64,000 nucleotides of DNA from Piezodorus guildinii (taxonomy: Eukaryota; Arthropoda; Insecta; Hemiptera; Pentatomidae): positions 80,672,169 to 80,736,168 of the forward strand of contig CM041292.1 of NCBI GenBank assembly GCA_023052935.1. Reading direction: 5' to 3'. Within the stretch, counting starts at the first letter, position 1, and each line of letters opens with the position of its first letter. This document shows, piece after piece, positions 1 through 48,639 of the stretch. The position numbers and the translations under genes are program-made. Under the pieces are notes generated by a model, which was given only the letters and a program-made list of their open reading frames with translations, made no database searches and was not told the origin of the DNA.

Positions 1-893
1 CATTGATAAATAACGGCTAAATATGTAAGTTAAGCGAATTCCATAAACAACCAAAGAAGAACGGTGCAAACAGATTTTTAAAGCAATTTTTGTGTTTTAG
101 AACACAATAATAGTAATAGAGATGTATAATATACCGTTAGATAGCTAAAGATTTTAGAAAAAATATTATCTAATACAAGCAATTGTAAAAGTTAAATGAG
201 AGTTATGAAAAGCCGATAAAACTAACTGATTGTTGTAAATAAAAATATAATAGACTAGCTGTTGCCCGCGTCAATTTCTGTTATTATGATATTGATTCAT
301 AAGTTTTTAAAATAATATATTTCAATTTATATTTATTTTATTTATTCGTAAATGATATTTTTAGTATTATCTTCTTGTTGCAGAAAAACATACTAATTTT
401 CTTCGCAACCCGATCTTGACAACGCGACATATAGTTGGCCGTGTGAAAAGCAGTCTTGGCGTAAATGTGTAATACGTGTTTAAATGTTTGACTCTGTGAT
501 CTACTAATTGTTACGGCGAAAGATAAATTAACTGTAAATTGAATTATTTAAAAATTAAAAGGTAAATAATTTGGAATCATTGGGATGCGAGGTTAATTTT
601 CCGCGTTGTTTCCACATTTTCCACTGATCCTTCGCTCCTGATAATCCTGAACATCGCAGGATGTTATATAGCCTATAACCTTCTTCGATAAATGGACTAT
701 CCTACAAAAAAACAATTTTTCAAATCGAATCAGTAGCTCCTGGGATTTAATAAACCACATTGTTCTTTTGAAATTTAATTCAATTAATTCGTTAGCAATT
801 TATTTTTATCTCTAAATGTATTTACAAAATCTTAAATTCATTTTGTCAATGGAGGTAAGTAAAAGCCGTGTGTTGAGCGCACCAGAATTTTCT
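1..893 (-). repeat. Rep-A copy 1, cut by a Helitron and by the window edge
   Basis: Minus-strand copy of the ~0.9-1.1 kb family whose 5' end reads CTGGTGCGGGCAACACACG (here decayed, near 870-890). It aligns along its length with copies at 13.3, 22.9, 43 and 48 kb. The window starts inside the copy. Homology stops at 254 and resumes at 746, because a Helitron occupies 255-745. No coding capacity is conserved between copies. Confidence 0.8.
255..745 (-). mobile_element. Internally deleted Helitron with helicase C-terminal remnant
   Basis: Both ends are fixed by the interrupted Rep-A copy. Read on the minus strand, the element begins TCCCAGGAGCTACTG at 745 and ends GGGCAACAGCTAG at 255. It has the 5'-TC and 3'-CTAG termini of Helitrons, sits between A and T, and has no target duplication. 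About 350-520 decodes on the minus strand as the end of a PIF1-type Helitron helicase: a motif V-like stretch (FAVTISRSQSQTFKHV), then after a frameshift a motif VI-like stretch (CFSHGQLYVALSRSG) and NTKNIIYE before a stop. An internal stop and the frameshift make it dead. Rep and most of the helicase are missing, so it is a non-autonomous deletion derivative. The 3' hairpin expected 5-10 nt before CTAG is weak here. Confidence 0.85.
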
Positions 894-2668: not shown

Positions 2669-3101
2669 ATAACATATTAAAAATTTGATAAAATGGTTTG
2701 CATTTTTCGTGCTGGTTCACGGATTATATTGTCTTCTAGGATTTAACAGAACAGAAAAATACTGTATATTTGTAGGCTCTATTTTGTTTAATGTAAATAA
2801 TGCAGTCAAGAAAAATACTGGTTAAAAAAAAAATAAACTGAAATACACAGATCTTGAATACGCTAAATGAAGATCTTTACATGGCTAATATTAGTATTTT
2901 ATTTAAACCCGCATGACAAACGAATGTTTAAAATGTGAGAGAAACTGTGGAACTGGAGAATCATGTGAGTTGTATGTGCAGCTAGCTATAGTGGCTCACA
3001 GGACCCAATACTAAACCCAAGACCTTCCCTGTCGTTATAATTATATCAAGAAAGAGATAGTTTGGGTGACAATAAAAAAAAGTGAAAAACAAATTAATAT
3101 A
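2669..3101. other. AT-rich unassigned DNA
   Basis: No open frame above background and no partner found in the window. Short poly(A) runs near 2826 and 3074. Confidence 0.5.
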
Positions 3102-3139: not shown

Positions 3140-4600
3140 AAATCAAGATCCAGTGCTGGTGCTTGATAATAACAGAAAATGACATAAAGAAATACTTAAA
3201 AGTTTAATTCTTATGTAATATTATTTCCGGTCATTATCAAACACCAACCTTTTTTCTTTTTTCTTTTTTTTTTTTTTTTTTTACCGCCATACGAACTATC
3301 TCTTCCTTGCTATCCATTTCACGAACAACAATTGATTATTCAATGATACCAATTATATTTTTGTTGAAGATCACTGCTGGTGTCCTATTGGCAACATAAC
3401 AAAAAAACTCAAAATACTATAGAAAATAAATATCTTATACACGTACATAGGTTATGTAACTTTTATTAAAACAAAAAAAAGTCACTTATTACTACAATTG
3501 ACTATAATGTACTGTGAACAATCTCCAAAATCAAGGCTAAATCTTTAGTTATTCGGTAAAGTAGAGTGGATAAATTACAAACCGATCAGATCTTGATTAA
3601 CAAATTATTCTTAGACTAACAAACGGTAAATTTTGTAAAAATTATAAACTGACAATGCCAGAAATTTATATCTAAAATCTTTTAGGTGTAAAAAAAAAAC
3701 ACCAACAGATACACAAATTATCTAAAGCATTTAATTAAGGTTATACCCAGTCTCAATACATACAGCTATAAATATTAAAAACTCGTTGTTTTTTAAAAGG
3801 ATAATAAAATAAAATTAGTATAAAGTATATAATACTTATCTGATAAAGCTGGAGCTCCAATTAGCTCCAGAGAGTAAATGGGATGATGTGAAAAAAAAAA
3901 AAAATGTGACGAATTAGTGGAGACAGCTAATTAAAAATATAAAGCTCCTAGCGATTAATTCAGGCATATTTTTACCTCGTTTTCGAGAATGATGGTTAAC
4001 ATTATTTTAACTAGCTTGTTAAACTTATAAAATATTAAAAGTTGTAAACACGAAGATAAATTTTAAAGAACAATGAGGAATATTTTACCATGATAATTCA
4101 CTGTATTTCATAATTCCATTGAATTTTTGGAGATGAAGTAACTAATAAAATAAGACAATGACTGCTTATTAAATTTATAAACTAGCATCAGCAAGGACTC
4201 AATCCTTAAATGTGTGAGTTCATTGGGTCATATGGATAATGGAGTATACCAAATAGGGTCAATATTATAAGTTTAAACTAGAAAAAACCTCTAATTTACG
4301 TTTTGAATTCTGGGCCCATCTCATGAATGGAGTATAGCTTTACATGAATTGCAGTTTAATATCAACAGAGTAATCGTTTCCTTTTTATTTTTATGTGATA
4401 ATAAAATTAATTAATATTAACATTAAAGTTTTAGTTTCCAACTAACTTTTTCTAATGTTACTCATGCCCGCTTATTGCCAACATATCCAAAAATTATACT
4501 GCAGAAAAAAAAAAACATATATAGGACTTGTAGCATTATCGATTACTACTGTCTACGCTGAGGTATATAAAACCCGAAGTAATATAGGTGCATAGAGTAG

Positions 4601-7299: not shown

Positions 7300-7840
7300 G
7301 CCCCCCATTAAATTAGAAGGCTTACGTTTCAAGATGCGTAAAACCCAAATAACGAATAAAAAAAATCTATTCATTCGGCATAAGCCGTCCGCGGCATTTC
7401 TCTGAAACTATTAGAACATTTTTTTTTTTTCGCCACAAAAATACTGGGGTATATAACGATGATCCTAACACCTAGACGTTGATATCAGTTGGCTATTTTT
7501 TAAAATGGCGGACGATTAAAAGTATTTTAATTTAATAACTTAGTTATTTTTAAAGATAGAGAAAAATTGTATGAGTGTTTTTAACCAAAGAACCGTGAAT
7601 AAATATAAAAAAGAGAAGAACTAAAAAAAAAAATTGAATTTTTATCCATGTATACAACCATTACTAAGTTGTTTTTGAAGATAGTGAAAAATATGTGTAG
7701 TTTTAGAATCAGTAAAGCGCGATAAAAAAAAAAAAAAATGTTGATCAGTATGTTCAAGTCACAAATTATGATAGATGTAATTCCACCGAAAATCGGGTAT
7801 TGTTGAATATAAAGAAAAATCAAATTAAGAGATGTGATTT
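7190..7840 (-). repeat. Rep-B copy
   Basis: Begins ATTATTTTCAATAGTAAAC...TTTGTAATAGACC, then a 64-nt poly(A) tract (7232-7295), then the shared blocks GGCTTACGTTTCAAGATGCG, CCGTCCGCGGCATTTCTCTGA, TAACACCTAGACGTTGATATCAG and GAATCAGTAAAGCGCGATAAA (7706-7728). Same blocks, opposite orientation, as the 36-kb copy. An 80-codon open frame inside (7581-7823) is a low-complexity by-product. Confidence 0.75.
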
Positions 7841-13135: not shown

Positions 13136-13307
13136 CCTGATACGAAAATATGAGTAAAATAAACGGAAAATAATTCATAAAAAATCTTAGCTTGGAGGAA
13201 TAGTATAGTGATCTAAAGATAAATCTATTCGTTTGTTAGATAAAGCTGTTTTTTACATTATTTATTATATTCAACAATCAATTGTATTGTTCAAAAAGAA
13301 AGGAAAA

Positions 13308-14440
13308 AAATCTGGTGCGGGCAACACACGACTTTTACTTACCTCCGTTTTTAAAATCGATTTTTAAGTACTTTCAAGTACAGTTAGAGATAAAAATAAG
13401 TGAAACCATTAAAGAATTAATTAACTTGAATTAATATAGAAACATGTGTTTTATTAAAAACTCTATTATATTATTATCTAAAATAATTAGTAAGTTTTAT
13501 CGGCTTTTTATTACTTTATCAATTTTACAAGCTTCTGTATAAGAAAATATATTTTCAAAAAATCTTTCTCTTTCTAGCGGTATATTATACGTCTATATTA
13601 CTGTTTATATGTTTAAAAACAAAATCGGGGCTCTCTGCTTCTTTGACAGGCCATCAGGTGGCAGCACGGTGAACATGAATTTCCCTTTTCGGGAACCCGA
13701 ATCAGTTAGTTGTATCGACATTTCATCACTTTCCATTACCTTTTACAATTCCGTGTATCAGATAATATTTTTTTATAAAATCTTTAGCTATCCAAATGAA
13801 TATTATACATCTATATTACTATTCTTGTGTTCAAAAACACAGAAAATGCATTAAAAAATATTTTTTCAGTTTTCTGATTTAACTGTTAATACAATTCGCC
13901 CAACATGCATATTAAGCTGTTATTTATAAATGGTAACAGGATAATATAGTTATTTTTATAGAATCTACAAAATCAAAGGTACTTTAGAGGAAGAAAATGT
14001 AAAATATTCGTATTTAAGCCCTGTCAAACTATTCCAATCAGAAAGAAAACCTACATTATATTAAAGCCCATTAAATTTTACATCCACATAGCGTTTTTAA
14101 TCAAAATCGTTAGAGCCGTTTTTGGGAAAATCATAAAAAAGGTGCAAAATGCATAGTATAAAGTGGCTGGTAAGCCGATTTTGATGAAAATGTTGATGTA
14201 ACATCTCGGGTATACAGATGTCTGAAATATGAAATTCAGACTTACCACACACACACAAACATACACACACACACACACACACACACGGATACGGACACGG
14301 ACACACAGACCTTTTTTCGGGACTTAGTTATTTGGACTCCGGAGACCCTAAAACGTGTATTTCCGTCGAAAACTGGAAGTCGAAAATTTTCTGAATCGCA
14401 ATACTTTCCCTAACTATATATTATGTTTATAGCTAAGTGA
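13308..14440 (+). repeat. Rep-A copy 2
   Basis: Near full-length: begins CTGGTGCGGGCAACACACG (13312), ends ATAGCTAAGTGAAAGTAA (14430-14448). A (CA)n microsatellite sits at 14245-14286, followed by the conserved block GACTCCGGAGACCCTAAAACG. The left-end TTTTACTTACCTC and right-end AAGTGAAAGTAA are roughly inverted, so short subterminal inverted repeats are possible. Confidence 0.85.
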
Positions 14441-14589
14441 AAGTAATAGAGTCCAGATAATCAATAAAATAATATATAGTACAAATGTAATATACAAAGT
14501 AGTATATATGAGCTCCTTTTCCACATGAAAAGTAACAGTCATGATAAAAGCTCTTTACTAAATGGCAAGTGAGAAAGAACGAACAAAAA

Positions 14590-15190
14590 ACAAAATATTA
14601 TGATAGATGTCAGAAGCATTTTAGCACCCATGGAAGCGAAGAAATTCAAAAGGAAAAGAAAACTTTGTTGATGAATGATGAAACTTGTGTGTTATTAGTC
14701 CATAATGATCCAAACGCTGCATCTTTTCATTCCTACATCACAGCCATCGAGGAATGGTGTCCAAACTGGAGGATTAAAAAAGCTCCTAAAAATCCCTCAA
14801 AATTACCTTTACCCTCCCTCGCAAACCGATGATCTTCTGTCCCACAGTATCCTTTAAGAACACCCACAACTGTAGGACAAATCCGATACCTAGGACTCCA
14901 TCTTGACAAACGTCTTACTTGGAATCCTCATACAAGACTTAAACGACAAGAAACTGCTCGTAGATACCGATTACTACAATACTTACTCGACAAACGTTCA
15001 AAACTTCCACTCCACTACATGAAGCTCATACATGTTACCATTATCAGGCCCATCTGGACATTTGGAATTGAGCTTTGAGGCTCTATTAAACCATCCAATT
15101 CTTCCCACATTCAATCCTCACAATCCAAAATCCTAAATTTTCTTTACTTCGTCACAAATAAAATCATTCATAACGAACATAATATTTTTT
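14590..15190 (+). mobile_element. Jockey-A LINE fragment, 5' portion of split copy
   Basis: Plus-strand decayed RT end: VHNDPNAASFHSY and EEWCPNWRIKKAP (matching CQNWRIKINA of the 5-kb copy), then RYLGLHLDKRLTWNPHT, KRQETARRYRLLQ, TIIRPIWTFGIEL, then a stop and QSSQSKIL. It breaks off at 15190, where the PLE block starts. The same protein continues at 21170 (TDLSLTGYTTFNSKL, corresponding to ADLPRSRYHSFHDKL of the 5-kb copy). Confidence 0.87.
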
Positions 15191-15274
15191 GGAACTTTTA
15201 AAAAAGCACATAATACCTTCCATTCATCATCTAAACCTTTTATTTCTTTAGTCCTTTAACATTTTTTTATTCAA

Positions 15275-15308
15275 GTCGACGTTTCGGGGTTGTTTCCCCA
15301 TTTTCAAG
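15275..15308 (-). ncRNA. PLE 3'-end stem with hammerhead-like border (left arm)
   Basis: Minus-strand mirror of 20998-21031: CTTGAAAAT, a perfect GGGG-AAACAA-CCCC hairpin, then GAAACGTCGAC. The CUGAUGA box is degenerate. Confidence 0.4.
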
Positions 15309-15635
15309 ACTGAAAACAATTTATACTTTTACTATTGAATAAAATCACATTATTTAAATATTTTTCCTTGAAAAATGAAGCTCAGCAATTTGTCATAATT
15401 ATTTTAAACTAACTATACTTTAATTACCTTATTCCTTGCTAGAACATTTTTCACATCTCATAGCCACTGCTACTTGTCTTGTATTGGCTCACTGTTTCCA
15501 TTATATTTCTATTTTAAACCTTTGTACCTTTTCAGTATTCCAGTGTAATCCTTGTGCTTATTTATTTATTTTTATTTTTACCTCTATTAATTATTTGTCC
15601 TAATTATGGTTATTGGGCTATTGTTTTATTTATTT

Positions 15636-16797
15636 TTAAAATTTTATCTTATTTATGATGTCTGTGTAATGTGTTCCTAAGTTTTTTGTATCTGTTTTAT
15701 AATTTATTGTCCTGCTATTATTTTTGGTTATGTGGATTGCTTCTAGTAGTTTTCTATTTCTATTATTTTGAGATGTGTCTAAAATTACTGCGTTTTCAAA
15801 GTTAAATTTGTGTTGTTTTATTATACTATGAGATGATAATGCTGTTACGTTTATGTTTTTTATATTTTTACAATTGGATATATGTTGGTTTATTCTTGTT
15901 TTTAATTTTTTAGATGTTTCTCCTATATATATGCTCTCACAATCTTTGCAGTCTATTTTGTATATTACATTTTGCTTATCCATTTTTTCTATTATGTCTT
16001 TCATTTTACTTAAATATTTTTCTAATTTGTTATTATTATATAGACCAAATGATATGTTTGGGTGATCATATTTTTTAAAAATACTTTTTATGGATTCTGT
16101 CAATTTAGGGATATATGTTAGTTTGTGGTATTTCTTGCTATTACTGTTGATATGCTGTTTATCGGTTTTTTCTTCTGACCTATCTATCATCTTATCATCT
16201 TTGAAAAATTGAGTTATAAATTTTTGTTTTGGTTTTTTTATTTTATTATTTAGATCTGTTTCTATGTTTTTACAATTTTCCTTTTGATTAGTAATTTTGT
16301 TATTATTTTTTGTTGTTGTTACTTCTTTTTTATAATTGTACCATAATTTATTAATAAGTATTTTTGGATAAAAGTTTTCTTTTAATATGTTATAAATTTC
16401 CAATTTTACATCTTTCATGAACTTTTCATCTGTAAGTTCTATTGCTCTATGTATATAATTTCTAGCTGTGTTTACTATTTGTGTTTTTGGGTGATTTGAA
16501 ATATAATTTAATATCCTATTGCTACTTGTCTCTTTTTTAGTCCATCTTGTACTGATTATATTGTTGTTTATTTGAATTTCTAAGTCAAGATATTTGATTT
16601 TATTGTTTATTGATTTTTCTATTGTAAATTGTATTTTTTTGTTGTAACTATTGAATATTTCTAAAATGTCTGTATATTGATTCTTATCTATTATTATAAT
16701 GAGGTCATCAATATATTTTTTTATTAATATTGGTTTAATTTTCAACTTTTCTATTTGTGTTGTTAATAGTTTATTTAAATATATCCCGCTAAGATTC
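15636..16797 (-). pseudogene. PLE polyprotein C-terminal half (RT palm end + GIY-YIG), left arm
   Basis: Minus-strand reading from the junction at ~16797 to the stop at 15636. It starts at VNLSGIYLNKLL, passes the RT catalytic box KYIDDLIIII (~16715), and continues through a Lys/Asn-rich linker. It ends in the Penelope GIY-YIG endonuclease domain: VIYKIDCKDCESIYIGETS with the CxxC insert, arginine in KTRINQH, and a downstream glutamate in LLEAIHI. The open frame really starts at 17138, but its first ~113 codons are antisense of the inverted N-terminal half and are not protein. The element would have reverse-transcribed its RNA at a nicked target; this half lacks fingers and the first palm boxes. 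Confidence 0.88.
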
Positions 16798-17890
16798 ACC
16801 GATAAAACCAATAAACCGGACATACCTAAAATAATAAGTAATAACATTAACAACAAAACGACATCACTTAATGCCAACAACATATTAAATGAATACCCAA
16901 TCATAAAAAATGACATATACAATAGGAACGAAGATGAAATGCTAAAAAAGTATAACAACTTATATAAGGTAAAAAATAGAGTTGAGAATAAAACAGAAAA
17001 AACAATACCTAATAATATAATTAACGTTTTATCATTAGGAGATAATTTTAGTTTTGACTTTAAAAATAAAGACAGAGATATAATTAAACTAATAATAGAC
17101 TTGGAAAACATATATGACAATATGCAAACTTCGGACAATCATAAAAATGCAACGAGGAACAAAATATGCACAATAATTAATAATTACATTTCTAATAACA
17201 AAAAACCAAATTCACCATTAAATATGCAAATTAATAAAGATTTGAAACAATTTAAACAATTTTTAAATACAAACAAAGATATCATAGTCATAAAATCCGA
17301 TAAAACTAAAAAACTTGCAATATTATATAAAAAAGAATACGAAGATAAAATGTCAGACCTACTAAATGAAAAAACCACATACAGAAAAATCAGAAATAAC
17401 CCAATAGCAGAGTTAACCGAAAAAATTAATACATTTGTTCAAAAAATACATAAATCTGGATATATAGATAAATTCACAAAAAATAAATTATTGGCTACAG
17501 ACAGTACAACACCACGCATACATGGACTTATAAAATTACATAAACAAAACAATAACTTAAGGCCAATAATCAATAACATAGACGGACCAAATGAAGCTTT
17601 ATCTAAATTTTTAAATCCTTCCCTTAATCAATTGAATAGAAATAATGAATATGACATAAAAAATGCAAGGGAGTTAAAAGAAATCCTCAAAAAAACAGAA
17701 TTAAAAGGGAAAAACTATGAAGTGATAAGTTTAGATGTAGTTTCACTCTTTACCAATATTCCCATTGAAGATTGTATCAAAATATTAGAAGATAATTGGG
17801 ATTCCATCAAAAACCATACACCAATAAAAGACAAAAAAATGTTCATTGAGGGAATAAATTTATGCACAAAATATAATTATTTCAAATATA
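16798..17890 (+). pseudogene. PLE polyprotein N-terminal half, left arm (inverted)
   Basis: Plus-strand part of a 405-codon frame (16699-17916), genuine from about 16800. It reads through VLSLGDNFSFDF, typical of Penelope N-terminal regions, then HGLIKLHKQNNNLRPIIN (fingers) and SLDVVSLFTNIPIED (RT box A, with the catalytic aspartate). It breaks at 17890 inside FKY, where it meets inverted C-half sequence; the last codons (YNCTIIY) are antisense. The N-terminus before FTDKTNK is absent in every copy. Confidence 0.87.
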
Positions 17891-19505
17891 AGTATAATTG
17901 TACCATAATTTATTAATAAGTATTTTTGGATAAAAGTTTTCTTTTAATATGTTATAAATTTCCAATTTTACATCTTTCATGAACTTTTCATCTGTAAGTT
18001 CTATTGCTCTATGTATATAATTTCTAGCTGTGTTTACTATTTGTGTTTTTGGGTGATTTGAAATATAATTTAATATCCTATTGCTACTTGTCTCTTTTTT
18101 AGTCCATCTTGTACTGATTATATTGTTGTTTATTTGAATTTCTAAGTCAAGATATTTGATTTTATTGTTTATTGATTTTTCTATTGCAAATTGTATTTTT
18201 TTGTTGTAACTATTGAATATTTCTAAAATGTCTGTATATTGATTCTTATCTATTATTATAATGAGGTCATCAATATATTTTTTTATTAATATTGGTTTAA
18301 TTTTCAACTTTTCTATTTGTGTTGTTAATAGTTTATTTAAATATATCCCGCTAAGATTCACCGATGAAACTCCCCCCATAGGTAATCCATTTAATTGTTT
18401 GTAATATTCATTTGTATATTTGAAATAATTATATTTTGTGCATAAATTTATTCCCTCAATGAACATTTTTTTGTCTTTTATTGGTGTATGGTTTTTGATG
18501 GAATCCCAATTATCTTCTAATATTTTGATACAATCTTCAATGGGAATATTGGTAAAGAGTGAAACTACATCTAAACTTATCACTTCATAGTTTTTTCCCT
18601 TTTAATTCTGTTTTTTTGAGGATTTCTTTTAACTCCCTTGCATTTTTTATGTCATATTCATTATTTCTATTCAATTGATTAAGGGAAGGATTTAAAAATT
18701 TAGATAAAGCTTCATTTGGTCCGTCTATGTTATTGATTATTGGCCTTAAGTTATTGTTTTGTTTATGTAATTTTATAAGTCCATGTATGCGTGGTGTTGT
18801 ACTGTCTGTAGCCAATAATTTATTTTTTGTGAATTTATCTATATATCCAGATTTATGTATTTTTTGAACAAATGTATTAATTTTTTCGGTTAACTCTGCT
18901 ATTGGGTTATTTCTGATTTTTCTGTATGTGGTTTTTTCATTTAGTAGGTCTGACATTTTATCTTCGTATTCTTTTTTATATAATATTGCAAGTTTTTTAG
19001 TTTTATCGGATTTTATGACTATGATATCTTTGTTTGTATTTAAAAATTGTTTAAATTGTTTCAAATCTTTATTAATTTGCATATTTAATGGTGAATTTGG
19101 TTTTTTGTTATTAGAAATGTAATTATTAATTATTGTGCATATTTTGTTCCTCGTTGCATTTTTATGATTGTCCGAAGTTTGCATATTGTCATATATGTTT
19201 TCCAAGTCTATTATTAGTTTAATTATATCTCAGTCTTTATTTTTAAAGTCAAAACTAAAATTATCTCCTAATGATAAAACGTTAATTATATTATTAGGTA
19301 TTGTTTTTTCTGTTTTATTCTCAACTCTATTTTTTACCTTATATAAGTTGTTATACTTTTTTAGCATTTCATCTTCGTTCCTATTGTATATGTCATTTTT
19401 TATGATTGGGTATTCATTTAATATGTCGTTGGCATTAAGTAATGTCGTTTTGTTGTTAATGTTATTACTTATTATTTTAGGTATGTCCGGTTTATTGGTT
19501 TTATC
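17891..19505 (-). pseudogene. PLE polyprotein, longest contiguous piece (right copy)
   Basis: Minus-strand, from 19505 down to 17891: N-terminal region, fingers, box A, and the only GLPMGG palm box in the window (18362-18388), on to KYIDDL and LWYNY. Two lesions break it. A TGA stop at ~19230 comes from AGA to TGA relative to the left arm. A one-base A insertion near 18590-18598 separates the 206- and 233-codon frames. The piece ends at 17891 without the GIY-YIG domain. It shows the native order of the RT boxes, against which the two chimeric halves can be read. Confidence 0.88.
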
Positions 19506-20670
19506 GGTGAATCTTAGCGGGATATATTTAAATAAACTATTAACAACACAAATAGAAAAGTTGAAAATTAAACCAATATTAATAAAAAAATATATTGATG
19601 ACCTCATTATAATAATAGATAAGAATCAATATACAGACATTTTAGAAATATTCAATAGTTACAACAAAAAAATACAATTTACAATAGAAAAATCAATAAA
19701 CAATAAAATCAAATATCTTGACTTAGAAATTCAAATAAACAACAATATAATCAGTACAAGATGGACTAAAAAAGAGACAAGTAGCAATAGGATATTAAAT
19801 TATATTTCAAATCACCCAAAAACACAAATAGTAAACACAGCTAGAAATTATATACATAGAGCAATAGAACTTACAGATGAAAAGTTCATGAAAGATGTAA
19901 AATTGGAAATTTATAACATATTAAAAGAAAACTTTTATCCAAAAATACTTATTAATAAATTATGGTACAATTATAAAAAAGAAGTAACAACAACAAAAAA
20001 TAATAACAAAATTACTAATCAAAAGGAAAATTGTAAAAACATAGAAACAGATCTAAATAATAAAATAAAAAAACCAAAACAAAAATTTATAACTCAATTT
20101 TTCAAAGATGATAAGATGATAGATAGGTCAGAAGAAAAAACCGATAAACAGCATATCAACAGTAATAGCAAGAAATACCACAAACTAACATATATCCCTA
20201 AATTGACAGAATCCATAAAAAGTATTTTTAAAAAATATGATCACCCAAACATATCATTTGGTCTATATAATAATAACAAATTAGAAAAATATTTAAGTAA
20301 AATGAAAGACATAATAGAAAAAATGGATAAGCAAAATGTAATATACAAAATAGACTGCAAAGATTGTGAGAGCATATATATAGGAGAAACATCTAAAAAA
20401 TTAAAAACAAGAATAAACCAACATATATCCAATTGTAAAAATATAAAAAACATAAACGTAACAGCATTATCATCTCATAGTATAATAAAACAACACAAAT
20501 TTAACTTTGAAAACGCAGTAATTTTAGACACATCTCAAAATAATAGAAATAGAAAACTACTAGAAGCAATCCACATAACCAAAAATAATAGCAGGACAAT
20601 AAATTATAAAACAGATACAAAAAACTTAGGAACACATTACACAGACATCATAAATAAGATAAAATTTTAA
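19506..20670 (+). pseudogene. PLE polyprotein C-terminal half, right arm
   Basis: Plus-strand mirror of 15636-16797: VNLSGIYL, KYIDDL, linker, GIY-YIG with YIGET and CKDC, stop at 20670. Its 500-codon frame also has an antisense N-terminus (19168-19505). It differs from the left arm at only a few residues, all seen in the antisense part (for example ISQSLF for ISLSLF). The domain content is RT fragment plus endonuclease, the signature of Penelope-like elements among insects. Confidence 0.88.
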
Positions 20671-20997
20671 AAATAAATAAAACAATAGCCCAATAACCAT
20701 AATTAGGACAAATAATTAATAGAGGTAAAAATAAAAATAAATAAATAAGCACAAGGATTACACTGGAATACTGAAAAGGTACAAAGGTTTAAAATAGAAA
20801 TATAATGGAAACAGTGAGCCAATACAAGACAAGTAGCAGTGGCTATGAGATGTGAAAAATGTTCTAGCAAGGAATAAGGTAATTAAAGTATAGTTAGTTT
20901 AAAATAATTATGACAAATTGCTGAGCTTCATTTTTCAAGGAAAAATATTTAAATAATGTGATTTTATTCAATAGTAAAAGTATAAATTGTTTTCAGT

Positions 20998-21031
20998 CTT
21001 GAAAATGGGGAAACAACCCCGAAACGTCGAC
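20998..21031 (+). ncRNA. PLE 3'-end stem with hammerhead-like border (right arm)
   Basis: CTTGAAAAT, then GGGGAAACAACCCC (perfect 4-bp helix), then GAAACGTCGAC, about 330 nt after the stop codon. PLE terminal repeats are known to carry hammerhead ribozymes. Here the stem II/GAAAC part is excellent but the CUGAUGA core is altered, so activity is doubtful. Confidence 0.4.
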
Positions 21032-21167
21032 TTGAATAAAAAAATGTTAAAGGACTAAAGAAATAAAAGGTTTAGATGATGAATGGAAGGTATTATGTGC
21101 TTTTTTAAAAGTTCCAATTAAGAAAACTTCCAAAAAAATTAAAAAAGAAAAGTAAATAATATTTTTT

Positions 21168-21675
21168 TTTTTTACAGACCTTTCTCTCACCGGATATACT
21201 ACTTTCAATTCCAAACTCCCAACCCACATAAACCCTCTTGTCCGCGGCCTATTAACCTTACATATTCCTGATAACCCTCTGAGACGATTGAGAAAAAATA
21301 TGGCTTCGGGATCTACTTGCTTAAATAAAAATTGAAGTTCTACCGCTAGTTAGTTTCTTCACCAGCCTTTTTACGTCATTTATTATAATTCAACACTTTT
21401 ACTACTTGTTGTATTTATGTTATATACCGTTGTAAAAAAAGGTCTAAATTTCAAATATAGTGGTAGAGGGAAATAAAATAAAATAATGTAAATAGCTAAA
21501 AGAGAAAAAAAATTGTAATAATTATAAATTTTTATTAGAATAGGAAAAAAAAATTGAAAATGTATGTGAAATATGTCCAAGGGATTGATAAAGTATGCTG
21601 TGTTATGTAAGAAACCCGATGTATTTGGGCAGGATTGCCAAATAAATAAAGCATTTCCCTCTCAATAAAATATTA
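21168..21675 (+). mobile_element. Jockey-A LINE fragment, 3' portion of split copy
   Basis: Continues the copy broken at 15190: TDLSLTGYTTFNSKLPTH, INPLVRGLL, LHIPDNPLRRLRKN, then a 3' UTR ending AATAAAGCATTTCCCTCTC near 21665. The same 3' end is present at 13016-13135. Together with 14590-15190 this gives a pre-insertion LINE fragment of about 1.1 kb. Confidence 0.85.
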
Positions 21676-21779
21676 AAAAACAAAACAATAGTCCTCGTTC
21701 CACAATGCAACCAAATGTTCGGTTATGAAAGGTGCAATCAAAGACCACCAAATCGCGTTTAAAGTTGTTAGGCTTAGAG

Positions 21780-22010
21780 AGTAACCAATTCATAAAAGGC
21801 TAATATGCACTGAACCCACGGATAGACCAAGAGGTAGTCCGAGTCGTATGTGGGAGGATCGTGTTAAAGCTGATCTCGGAGGCTTGAGCTTGAACTGTGG
21901 TCATTAGACGGACTAATGTAGACAAATATTGATGATAGCATCGAATCTTTGGGATAGGCTTAGCCTTAAAAAGCCTTAATTAAATGAGAACCAATTGTCA
22001 AGGAAAGGTG
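21780..22010 (+). mobile_element. Decayed RTE/CR1-type LINE C-terminus
   Basis: Reads GRPRGSPSRMW-like: DRPRGSPSRMWEDRVKADL, then GLSLN and later LWDRLS. The GRP-R-W-D-V--DL pattern is common at the end of RTE/CR1-type proteins. Short and stop-ridden. The clade is not certain. Confidence 0.45.
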
Positions 22011-22744: not shown

Positions 22745-22870
22745 TAGGGCCAGACTTGTTTTCAGCCGCGAAGTCTTCAGACTTGAAATGGCTGCAAAAC
22801 TACAAGTATTAACTCGAAAAATGTTCAATCCACTGTTTTTAATTTGGAAAAGGATGGTGAACAACTGGTA
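22745..22870 (-). repeat. Rep-C end, inverted
   Basis: Shares TTAG..GCGAAG and GGCTGCAAAACTACAAGTATT with the 45.9-kb and (inverse) 61.2-kb copies. With 22275-22420 it forms a loose inverted pair ahead of a Rep-A copy. Confidence 0.45.
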
Positions 22871-23781
22871 AAAAATCTGGTGCGGGCAACACACGACTTT
22901 CACTTACCTCGATTTTTAAAATCAATGAAAGAATTTTCAAATACAGTTAGAGATAAAAATACGTGAAACTATTAAGGAATTAATCAAATTGAATTTCTAT
23001 AGAAACATGTGTTTCATTAAAAAATCTATTATATTATTATCTAAAATTATCAGTTAGTTTTATCTTCTTCTCATCACTCTCTATCAACTTCTAAAAGCTT
23101 GTGTATGAGATGATATTTTTTCTAAAATCTTTAGCTTTCCAACGGTATATCATACATGTATATTACTGCTCTTATGTTCAAAAACGAAAAATTGCATTAA
23201 AAAAGTATTTTTCTGTTTTCTCCTTTAGTTGGGTATCGAATTTATTCAATCTATATATTTACCTGTTTATCAGTGTTAACAAGATAATCTAGTTATTATT
23301 ATTGAATCTACAAAATTAAATGTACTTTAGGGAAAGAAAATTTAAAATATCAGCATTTAAGCCCTGTCAGACCATTTTTATCCAAATAAAACCTACATGA
23401 TATTAAAGCCCATTAAATTTTACATCGATATAGCGAGTTTAATCAAAATCGTCGGAACAGTTTTTGAGAAAATCGAAAAAAGGTGCAAAATGCATGGTAT
23501 GAAGTTCCTCTTCTGGTAAGCTCATTTTGATGAAAAAAGTGTTGTCACTTTTCGGGCTTATAGTTGTCTTAAATATGAAATTTCAGTTTCATACGACTTA
23601 CCGTTTCCGCCCGGGAGTTACCACACACACACACACACACACACACTCAGACCTTTTTGCGGGACTTGGTTATTTGGACTCAGGGGACCCTAAAACGTGT
23701 ATTTCCGTTGAAAACTGGAATTCGAAAATTTTCACGATCGCAATACTTCCCCTTACTATATATAGTAAGTGAAAGTAAAAT
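22871..23781 (+). repeat. Rep-A copy 3
   Basis: Starts CTGGTGCGGGCAACACACG at 22874 and ends ATATAGTAAGTGAAAGTAA. It contains (CA)n at 23622-23646 and the conserved GACTCAGGGGACCCTAAAACG. Four short open frames inside recur in other copies by homology, not selection. Confidence 0.88.
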
Positions 23782-30206: not shown

Positions 30207-30761
30207 AATAAAAAAATTATTTTTTGAAATTGCATTTGTAAATCAATGAGTGAAATTAGGCCATTTATATGAGAGAATGAATCCTTTTTCAATGAGCGTA
30301 CCCGTCCTACACATCTCACATTGAAAAAAGATAGAGATCAATAAACATAAAACTCGTCTTGCCACGCGGACAGCTCCACCATAAAAGCTTACGGTAGTGG
30401 TAAATAACCGAATACGAATTCAAGGACTGGAATTTAGAATATCTCACAAAACTGGATCCTGGGAGCAATAATGCTCCTTACGACCACTATTTTTTTCGTG
30501 TTGTTTTTAATGTAGTGCAATAATAGTTCGTCAGTATAATCTATTGTGCCTATTTAGTGCTCATAGTGTATTTCCGGCACATAAATTTGAAAGCTTTTCT
30601 ACTACAAGGATATCTTATATTTGGCTTCCTGAGGATAACTGTTTTTATGAAAATCCGAAATCGAAACTGATGTTAAAATCTAACCCAATTGAATAAAACA
30701 ACAGGTTTTGAAGAATAGCAAAAAAATTATTCATTTAGAAAATTATTATAAGTATTAAAAA
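30207..30761. other. Unassigned
   Basis: Includes a second occurrence of AGATCAATAAACA (30333) as at 29934. No gene. Confidence 0.45.
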
Positions 30762-31277
30762 AATCTGGTGCGCGCAACACACGACTTTTACTTACCTTCG
30801 TTGTTAAAATCAATTTAAGAATTTTCAAATACATTTTAAGATACAAATAAATGTTTAAACAGTTAAATTTAATTTCAATAAAAACACGTGTTTTATTAAA
30901 TAATCTATTATATTTTTATTTATAACAATCAGTTAGTTTTATCGGCTTTTTCATCACTCTCCATTAACCTTTAAAATTACGTTTCTTAGATGATATTTTT
31001 TCTAAACTTTTTAGCTATCCAACGGTATATTATACATCTATATTACTATTATTGTGCTCAAAAACACAAAAATTGCATAAAAAATATGTTTGCACTTTTC
31101 ACCTTAGTTGTTTATCAAATTCGCTCAATTTGCATATTTATCCGTTATTTTTCAATGCTATGATGATGTTCCAATTTTTAGTAAAATCTACTAAATGAAA
31201 GGTAGATTCGAAAATGTTCACGATAGCAATACATTCCCTTACTATGTATTTCATATATAGGTAAGGGAAAGTAAAAA
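30762..31277 (+). repeat. Rep-A copy 4, internally deleted
   Basis: Both ends present (CTGGTGCGCGCAACACACG; TAGGTAAGGGAAAGTAA) but homology jumps at ~31200 from the TAAAATCTAC region to the terminal GAAAATGTTCACGATAGC block. About 400 bp, including the (CA)n, are missing. Confidence 0.85.
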
Positions 31278-42671: not shown

Positions 42672-43563
42672 TTTTACTTTCACTTACTATATATAGTAGC
42701 GGAAAGTATTGCGATCGTGAAAATTTTCGAATTCCAGTTTTCAACGGAAATACACATTTTAGGGTCCCTTGAGTCCAAATAACTAAGTCCCGCAAAAAAT
42801 TCTGTGTGTGTGTGTATGGTAACTCGGAGGCGGAAACGGTAAGGTAAGTCTTATGAAACTGAAATTTCATATTTAAGACAAATATACGCCCGAGACGTTA
42901 CGAAACCTTTTTCATCAAAATGTGCTTCCCAGAAGAGCCACTTTATACCATGCATTTTGCACCTTTTTCGATTTTCTCGAAAACGGTTCAGAAGATTTAG
43001 ATTAAACTCGCCATATCGATGTAAAATTTAATATGCTTTAATATCATGTAGGTTTTATTCGGATTAAAATGGTCTGACAGGGCTTAAATGCCGATATTTT
43101 AAATTTTCTTTCTCTAAAGTACCTTTAATTTTGTTGATTCTATAAAAATAACTATATTATCTTGTCACCGCTGATGAAAAACAGGTAAATATATAAATTG
43201 AATGAATAAAGGAGAAAACAGAAAAAATATTTTTTTAATGCAATTTTTTGTTTTTGAACATAAGAGCAGTAATATACATGTATGACATACCGGTAGAAAG
43301 CTAAAGATTTTAGAAAAAATATTATCTTATACTCAAGCATTTGAAAGTTATTAGAGAGTGATGAAAAGAAGATAAAATTAACTGATTATTTTAGCTAATA
43401 ATATAATAGATTTTTTAATAAAACACATGTTTGTATATAAATTCAATTTAAATAATTCTTTAATAGTTTCACGTATTTTTATCTCTAACTATATTTGAAA
43501 ATTCTATCATCGATTTTAAAAATGGAGGTAAGTGAAAGTCGTGTGTTACCCGCACCAGATTTT
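42672..43563 (-). repeat. Rep-A copy 5
   Basis: Near full-length, minus orientation, from CTGGTGCGGGTAACACACG (43559) to TTACTATATATAGTAAGTGAAAG (42675-42697). (GT)n at 42802-42815 is short. Close to the 22.9-kb copy. Confidence 0.88.
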
Positions 43564-44089
43564 TTTTTAAATACAAACACGTGGTAAGTTAATCACAACT
43601 TTGTTTAAAGAAGTTTTTGATTTATTTCCGTTACTTGATTCAAGGTAAGGATACCTATTTAAGTTAAAATTTGTATGGAGTAAGAACGCCAATTTTAGAG
43701 GTATGGTTGCTAATATAAGAGCTATATGTCAAAAAAGCCTAACATAATCAAAAATAAATAAAAATTGCTTTGATAAATTCGCTCAACAGAGTGGATAATA
43801 CACGGAGGAAAAAATAGCCTATGATCAATATTGCATGGTCCGTAATTAAATTCTAGAGGCTTTTTCCGATAAAGTTACAGTATATTATATTGCTTGTCAA
43901 ACCATCAATTCAATTCACACATCAATCCATCGGCCCTTCGGAAACCGTTGTAAAAAAACGGCTTTTGTCAAAGTAGTAATAAAGGAGTATGTCAGTTCTT
44001 ATTTGCCAATCACTCAGCTCCAATCAATCATTTTATTTTGTATGGTGTATTAATTGTGAAAGACTCTTATTATTGTTAATTGGCATTTC

Positions 44090-47615: not shown

Positions 47616-48391
47616 AGGTGAGTGTGTGTGTGGTAACTCCTGGGAGGAAACGAAAAGTCCTATGAAACTGAAATTTCATATTTAAGACAACTATACGCCC
47701 GAGATGTTACAAAAACTTTTTCATCAAATCGGCTAACCAGTAGAGCCACTTTATACTATGCATATTGCACATTTTTATGTTTTTATCAAAAACGATTCCG
47801 ACGATTTTGATTAAACTAGCTGTATCGATGTAAAATTTAATGGGCTTTAACATCATGTAGGTTTCATTCTGATTGAAATAGTTTGACAGGGCTTAAATGG
47901 CAATATTTCAAAACATCTTTTTCTAAAGTACCTTTACTTTTGTAGATATTAAAAAAATAACAATATAATCTTTTTACTACTGATGAAAAACAGGTTAATA
48001 TATAAGTTGAACGAATTCGATATCCAACTAAAGGAGAAAACTATAAAAATATTTTTTAATGCAATTTTTTGTTTTTACACAAAAGGATAGTAATATACAT
48101 GTATAATATACCGTTGGAAGGCTAATGATTTCAGAAAAAAATACTATCTTATACAAAAGCTTGTAAAAGTTAATGAACAGTGATGATAGCCGATAAGACG
48201 ATAAAACAAACTGATTATTTTATATAATAATATAATAGATTTTTTAATAAAACACATGTTTCTATAGAAATTCAATTTAATTAATTCTATAATGGTTTTA
48301 CACATTTTTATCTTTAACTGTACTTAAAAATTCTTTAATCGATTTTTAAAACGGAGGTAAGTGAAAGTCGTGTGTTGCCCGCACCAGATTT
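47616..48391 (-). repeat. Rep-A copy 6, stops at the microsatellite
   Basis: From CTGGTGCGGGCAACACACG (48387) down to (GT)n at 47621-47634. The final ~130 bp beyond the microsatellite are missing. Confidence 0.85.
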
Positions 48392-48639
48392 ATTTCTAAG
48401 TCCTCTAACCTTCTGTTAAAGTCTATAAAACTACCTGAGGTGGTTTTAAGATGAATAATCTAATTTTAGAGAAAATTTAGGTCAAGATCATTTCTTATCA
48501 AAACCCTAACATATCTTCATATAATCCTTCCATTGTACATAAAAAATAATGAAAGAATATGGGGCGCAGTACACAGCAGCATTAGTTTCAAATAAATTAA
48601 CCTTGAAGATAAATTTTAAGTAAACAAATCAAACAAAAT

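Follow-up and report, generated by a model that had tools for sequence, protein, structure and literature searches.

A palindromic Penelope-like element insertion in Piezodorus guildinii with one chimeric junction carried by both arms

The 64,000-nucleotide stretch of Piezodorus guildinii DNA analysed here (the window) contains a LINE interrupted by a block of Penelope-like element (PLE) sequence whose two halves mirror one another, which raises the question of how both halves came to carry the same chimeric junction. The original prediction of a giant near-perfect palindrome, with arms of about 2.70 kb and a 524-bp spacer, is borne out by alignment of the arms (15189-17890 against 18415-21117; 2703 aligned columns with 3 mismatches and 1 gap, 99.85% identity) around a spacer at 17891-18414. 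The longest exact inverted match within the palindrome is 1676 nt, compared with 22 nt or less across 30 shuffles of two-base blocks. The spacer has homology of its own to the arms, as had also been predicted, over 478 nt (17893-18370, matching 16331-16808 directly and 19498-19975 in inverted orientation). The structure is real and unusual, and is a variant of known PLE anatomy. Searches covered a single assembly of 1.2 Gb in 434 contigs, within which the window occupies G000:C1:80672169-80736168.

Placement on a coordinate reference, the tandem PLE unit G000:C7:83899230-83902530 (3301 bp, hereafter ref), resolves the block into four segments of one PLE family, in the order ref 3301 down to 1680 (minus), 548 up to 1635 (plus), 2158 down to 548 (minus), and 1680 up to 3301 followed by ref 1-38 (plus), as detailed in Table 1. 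The proposed Penelope-like identity is supported by RVT_1, identified with Pfam in the window frame 17882-18601 on the minus strand (E 4.8e-7) and in the reference copy (E 2.3e-11), and by GIY-YIG in the reference copy (E 1.4e-6). Among the five window frames searched with Pfam, RVT_1 was found in this one and no domain in the other four; GIY-YIG, seen in the reference copy, was not found by Pfam in the chimeric frames of the window. At least 85 related proteins, from 7994 candidates, include insect relatives of the PLE protein, for example one of Onthophagus taurus (54% identity across 85% of the query). The family also has pLTRs, as tandem or partial tandem units, for example at C7:83897529, C7:2033000, C6:45504000 and C5:5419500. 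A scan of window positions 14500-22000 gave no match to the hammerhead ribozyme at E <= 5, a search that a degenerate motif could escape, and the same ribozyme/RNA scan returned three weak matches (SAM-II twice, IS009) far under gathering scores; a hammerhead ribozyme is not known to be universal in the pLTRs of PLEs.

Table 1. Coordinates of the PLE segments, junctions and flanking LINE sequence in the window
Feature	Positions	Strand	Remarks
Upstream half of interrupted Jockey-like LINE reading	14770-15186	+	
Left copy of target-site duplication, ATAATATTTTTT	15179-15190		last two T also match the PLE end
Left C segment	15189-16808	-	ref 3301 down to 1680; tail-less end adjoins left flank; no private change
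Left arm junction 1680/548	16804-16808		5-nt overlap AAAAC; found only in the two arms
Left N segment	16804-17890	+	ref 548 up to 1635; no private change
2-nt filler at palindrome turning point	17891-17892		
Spacer (loop)	17893-18414	-	uninterrupted PLE, ref 2158 to about 1637; part of RT domain
Whole minus piece	17893-19502	-	ref 2158 to 548; five private substitutions and one inserted A
Right arm junction	19498-19502		mirror image of left arm junction
Right C segment	19498-21117	+	ref 1680 up to 3301; includes GIY-YIG coding part
PLE tail	21118-21155	+	ref 1-38; present at right end only
Right copy of target-site duplication, ATAATATTTTTT	21156-21167		
Downstream half of LINE reading, to its stop	21169-21335	+	

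The block is one PLE insertion into an older copy of a LINE, since the LINE reading resumes 3' of the insert, the joined flanks match other LINE copies, and ATAATATTTTTT is present on both sides as a 12-bp duplication. The LINE presumably belongs to the Jockey clade, a name that the original prediction also gave it. A 200-base query made of the joined flanks matched at 84-86% identity, over full or near-full length, at 40 of 40 scored places from 3518 candidates, and the empty site is intact in all 40 of these LINE copies; Pfam found nothing in 80 residues of the LINE flank. Continuation of the interrupted LINE protein on either side, the flanking ATAATATTTTTT and a single insertion event had all been anticipated, and each is confirmed by these observations. 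The block had also been described as two Penelope-like elements nested in a LINE, which is not supported, the block being four segments of one family: two nested PLE insertions are rejected because a single flank duplication encloses the block and its ends are of the family type. A different dispersed repeat family, of about 77-88% identity, stands on both sides of the palindrome (13304-14421, 22870-23780, 30755-31157, 42672-43570 and 47618-48399).

An ordinary head-to-head insertion has one inner junction. The unusual feature of the window locus is a chimeric junction, of ref 1680 with ref 548, that is carried by both arms. A 32-base pattern with up to 2 mismatches detected it twice in mirror image (one forward and one reverse match; control 0) and, assembly-wide, did not find it outside the two arms; a 140-base junction query was likewise matched over full or near-full length by the two arms only, among the best 40 of 110 candidates. 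The search of the assembly for this chimeric junction, which the original prediction had called for, thus returned nothing but the two arms of the window. Microhomology had been predicted at the junction, and an overlap does exist, consisting of the 5 nt AAAAC and not of TCACCGAT(A/G)AAAC; the latter is ordinary C-side sequence, which runs uninterrupted through the spacer as well, with one private base change. It is strongly suggested that the window junction formed once. For the window taken alone, the two arms could have acquired the same junction independently, but the filler shared by the arms of a second locus speaks against this; two independent joins are less firmly excluded in the window than at that locus, because the window junction has a 5-nt overlap and no filler.

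The four-part topology of the window recurs at the second locus, L075 (C7:3443000-3452999), with other breakpoints (ref 3 descending to 1935, 398 ascending to 2039, 1395 descending to 398, and 1935 ascending to 42, in this order), and the flanks of L075 have a 13-nt string in common. A 5-nt filler, TGGAT, is present at the junction in both arms; the L075 junction was therefore made once, and an inverted copy of it followed. Outside its two arms this junction was not found in the assembly (35-base pattern, up to 3 mismatches; control 0). The loop measures 644 nt in L075 versus 524 nt in the window, and the turning point has a 2-nt overlap in L075 and a 2-nt filler in the window. The right C arm of L075 is scrambled in a patch at about 7440-7532 (about ref 2308-2458), where substitutions and small deletions are numerous, and the left arm is normal across the same ref region; the patch is possibly a switch point or a site of error-prone repair, or unrelated. 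A copied junction is not required for other palindromes of the family, such as those at C7:2033000, whose arms are about 5 kb long, and at C5:106571800 (about 280 nt).

Private changes bear on the direction of copying. In the window, the minus piece (17893-19502) carries five private substitutions relative to the other copies, along with an A inserted after ref 1454 that is present in one other copy, and the other three segments carry no private change except that at ref 39, at the flank boundary. The clustering is modest (the chance of all five substitutions falling in the minus piece is 0.0014, and in any one of the four segments 0.005), and it is suggestive of the minus piece being the copy, if the changes arose during copying. 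Private changes are present in both halves of L075, with no contrast like that of the window, and thus the direction of copying is not visible there.

A survey of the family covered 39 assembled stretches taken from the best-scoring matches, not at random, of which 12 are head-to-head insertions read at both ends and 8 are plain insertions; the arrangement "head-to-head, 3' ends outward" was a criterion of selection, not an outcome. Outside the counts are a complex locus represented by two stretches with an unread gap between them (C4:119045945 and 119054887; one tailed and one tail-less end, flank duplication not seen), C2:100978180 (which lacks a tail and has a repeated flank), and 16 stretches that are fragmented, are unread at one end, or carry the different 3' end that marks an older subfamily; the sample leaves out eight listed 3' ends. 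Exactly one end is tailed in all 12 head-to-head insertions (tail of 34-44 nt, as set by the BLAST edge), and in every one the tail-less end lies at ref 3278-3301 or 3 nt beyond the unit boundary. If the two ends picked start sites independently, one of each kind would be expected in at most half of the insertions, and the chance of 12 of 12 would be at most 0.00024. The flanks of all 12 have a common string of 12-16 nt, a match reached by 0 to 0.044 of 500 random draws, where each piece compared took in 22 nt of flanking sequence plus 8 nt of the element and the common string may include a few element bases. Plain insertions have a tail in 6 of 8 cases and none in 2 of 8; their flanks have 12 nt in common in 2 of 8 and 4-7 nt in 6 of 8. 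Two-ended priming is therefore not the sole route of the family, plain insertions being mostly (6 of 8) without a target duplication.

Sixteen inner joins were read, 6 with an overlap of 1-5 nt, 1 blunt, and 9 with a filler of 1-20 nt (BLAST edges), and they look like the end joining of two cDNA ends. Private variants are common to both arms at five of eight loci (C6:45504000, C2:150407957, C4:119045945, C3:56795500 and L075, where they are explained in part by mirror copying itself), and are not common to the arms in the window or at C7:2033000; C5:5419500, with a second arm of 77 nt, was not judged.

The family displays several other structural features. The upstream pLTR pieces (296 nt) of L071 and L072 (C6:45504000 and C5:5419500) both begin at exactly ref 3006, and the ends of several palindromes made of pLTR alone fall at ref 3018-3061; these starts and ends may indicate where the PLE RNA has its 5' end. 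L078 and L079 (C5:106571800 and C5:126812200), L077 and L080 are pLTR-only palindromes of ~0.5 kb with one tail and shared flanks, and two small palindromes among L077-L080 end one arm at the identical base, ref 3024. A large head-to-head PLE complex, partly read, extends over C4:119045945-119057963 (L022, L054, L061, L062 and L021), its arms having similar yet different internal deletions (2448/1815 and 1559/2764). L035, L038, L060 and others belong to an older PLE subfamily, of about 95-96% identity, that matches ref only to 3216 and terminates in a different sequence, AAGATGGAATAAAAAA.

The palindrome probably, though far from certainly, arose from a single PLE insertion in two steps, namely two-ended priming head to head and then an inverted mirror copy. 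The first step is supported by its fit to the one-tail pattern of the family: the PLE enzyme would cut both strands of an AT-rich site, and each 3' end would serve as primer for reverse transcription beginning close to the 3' end of the PLE RNA, one start leaving the tail and the other lying about 38 nt further in. The two cDNAs would then be joined head to head by end joining, giving the 1680/548 junction and leaving the 12-bp target duplication. During the second step, synthesis would switch strands, guided by the inverted repeats within the insert itself, and would run back through the single junction to give the mirror copy, with the 524-nt loop at the turn; this may have happened during completion of the insert, or later in replication or repair. 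The junction would have been made once and copied once. Within the single assembly covered, a precursor allele did not appear. We infer, then, priming on both target strands, end joining, and a subsequent switch guided by inverted repeats. As a more general and still tentative proposition, held at somewhat less than even likelihood, complete PLE insertions could come from a paired enzyme that primes both target strands on RNA of one source with differing start sites, and the resulting one-tail inverted repeats could guide the formation of kilobase mirror palindromes.

Template switching or twin priming had been suggested as the origin of the block. A twin-priming-like origin of the head-to-head copies in general is supported (12 of 12), although it is not of the L1 type, and a copying step is needed in addition because twin priming alone does not yield the same junction in both arms. 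L1 twin priming involves both target strands priming on the element RNA within one target duplication, with the second priming internal. The window insert likewise has a target-site duplication (12 nt) around the whole of it, but both outer ends begin at the 3' end of the element, with no internal second priming of the L1 type, and poly(A) is absent.

The favoured reading is that an ordinary head-to-head insertion underwent a template switch, by fold-back or through inverted repeats; an assembly error or a chimeric donor RNA is less probable than mirror copying. If a head-to-head PLE elsewhere had been transcribed through its junction, ordinary two-ended priming on that RNA would let both arms inherit junction and filler with no special copying step; this would account for the identical junctions and for the shared filler of L075, and the private variants shared by the arms of other loci point to RNA of one source. 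Such a donor is nevertheless unlikely, given that none with the junction is present in the assembly, where only the two arms match for the window and L075 alike, that two separate missing donors would be required, and that the RNA would have to be read from the antisense side. Gene conversion can act between long inverted repeats, and arms that are 99.85% alike might once have had different junctions, made alike later by conversion from arm to arm; however, the differences of the minus piece have still not been evened out and the junction would have to be overwritten at two loci, which makes conversion highly improbable.

Long inverted repeats are also hard to assemble, and the mirror-copy reading is drawn from assembled sequence. 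A fold-back chimera in the library, or a mis-joined repeat, is even so the least probable of the explanations weighed: fold-back would mirror the flank, but the insert actually lies between the two halves of a single LINE and is bounded by a 12-bp duplication; the limits of the block coincide with PLE ends, private changes distinguish its segments, and a second locus (L075) has the same form. Self-priming of cDNA or antisense RNA, as put forward for bdelloid Penelope in the portion of PMC3846280 considered here, would produce the head-to-head form and the palindrome without second-strand priming, and fold-back is a component of the favoured second step as well; it is quite improbable as the origin of both, for a strand copying itself should reach the tail, whereas in 12 of 12 insertions the second end lies at ref 3278-3301 or 3 nt further on, and the inner joins (6 overlap, 1 blunt, 9 filler) resemble end joining.

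The two-step insertion favoured here can be compared with systems already described. EN+ Penelope elements (Adineta vaga Pen2a and others), as presented in that portion of PMC3846280, have inverted pLTRs, one of which may carry the tail; for inverted copies the authors propose self-priming on an antisense template, without settling the matter. Within the same portion, these elements resemble the present family in their GIY-YIG and RT domains, direct pLTRs plus an inverted copy, short target duplication, mostly head-to-head inversions with palindromes at the inverted junctions, and permuted inverted halves (two Pen3 copies). Against that part of the account, the present case differs in a chimeric junction mirrored between two kilobase arms on either side of a loop, in a one-tail pattern that has been counted (12 of 12), and in inner joins that resemble end joining.

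In vitro, both strands of an AT-rich target are cut and extended by a purified Anolis PLE (PAc, Poseidon of Anolis carolinensis), which starts at two neighbouring internal RNA sites, one at either limit of the tail, with a start site no different between strands; steps after first-strand synthesis are not yet validated (PMC11167929). Priming on both strands and two adjacent start sites fit the pairing of one tailed with one tail-less end seen here. Unlike the PAc products, each head-to-head insertion here has one end of each kind, and palindromes are not reported in the main text of that study. One start site per strand, with priming on both target strands, fits the genomic pattern better than self-priming does, and goes beyond the in vitro result for PAc.

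The copying step has a counterpart in DUP-TRP/INV-DUP rearrangements, in which, according to the part of PMC4352052 considered, inverted repeats guide one switch and a second switch, with 1-4 bp of microhomology, accompanies an inverted copy. The logic is the same at larger scale: low-copy repeats on a genomic scale are involved in that part of the account, versus the arms of one retrotransposon insertion here. A turning-point junction of this type is found at both loci and is non-recurrent (2-nt filler in the window, 2-nt overlap in L075). The part of PMC10766183 considered gives a related fork-switching model from yeast. Among the open-licence PMC papers covered, none dealt in its title or abstract opening with twin priming of PLEs or with copied junctions in PLE palindromes.

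As to how PLEs complete their insertion, the occurrence of one tail and a shared flank in 12 of 12 head-to-head insertions favours priming on both strands followed by end joining; the one-tail pattern can be checked in any genome with young PLEs. Kilobase palindromes are tied to instability and to possible hairpin RNA, and the original prediction had named hairpin RNA and small RNAs as possible products of the present structure. The two palindromes with a copied junction point to a route from a retrotransposon insertion to a kilobase palindrome, and the family pattern, together with the second example at L075, bears on the mode of PLE integration.
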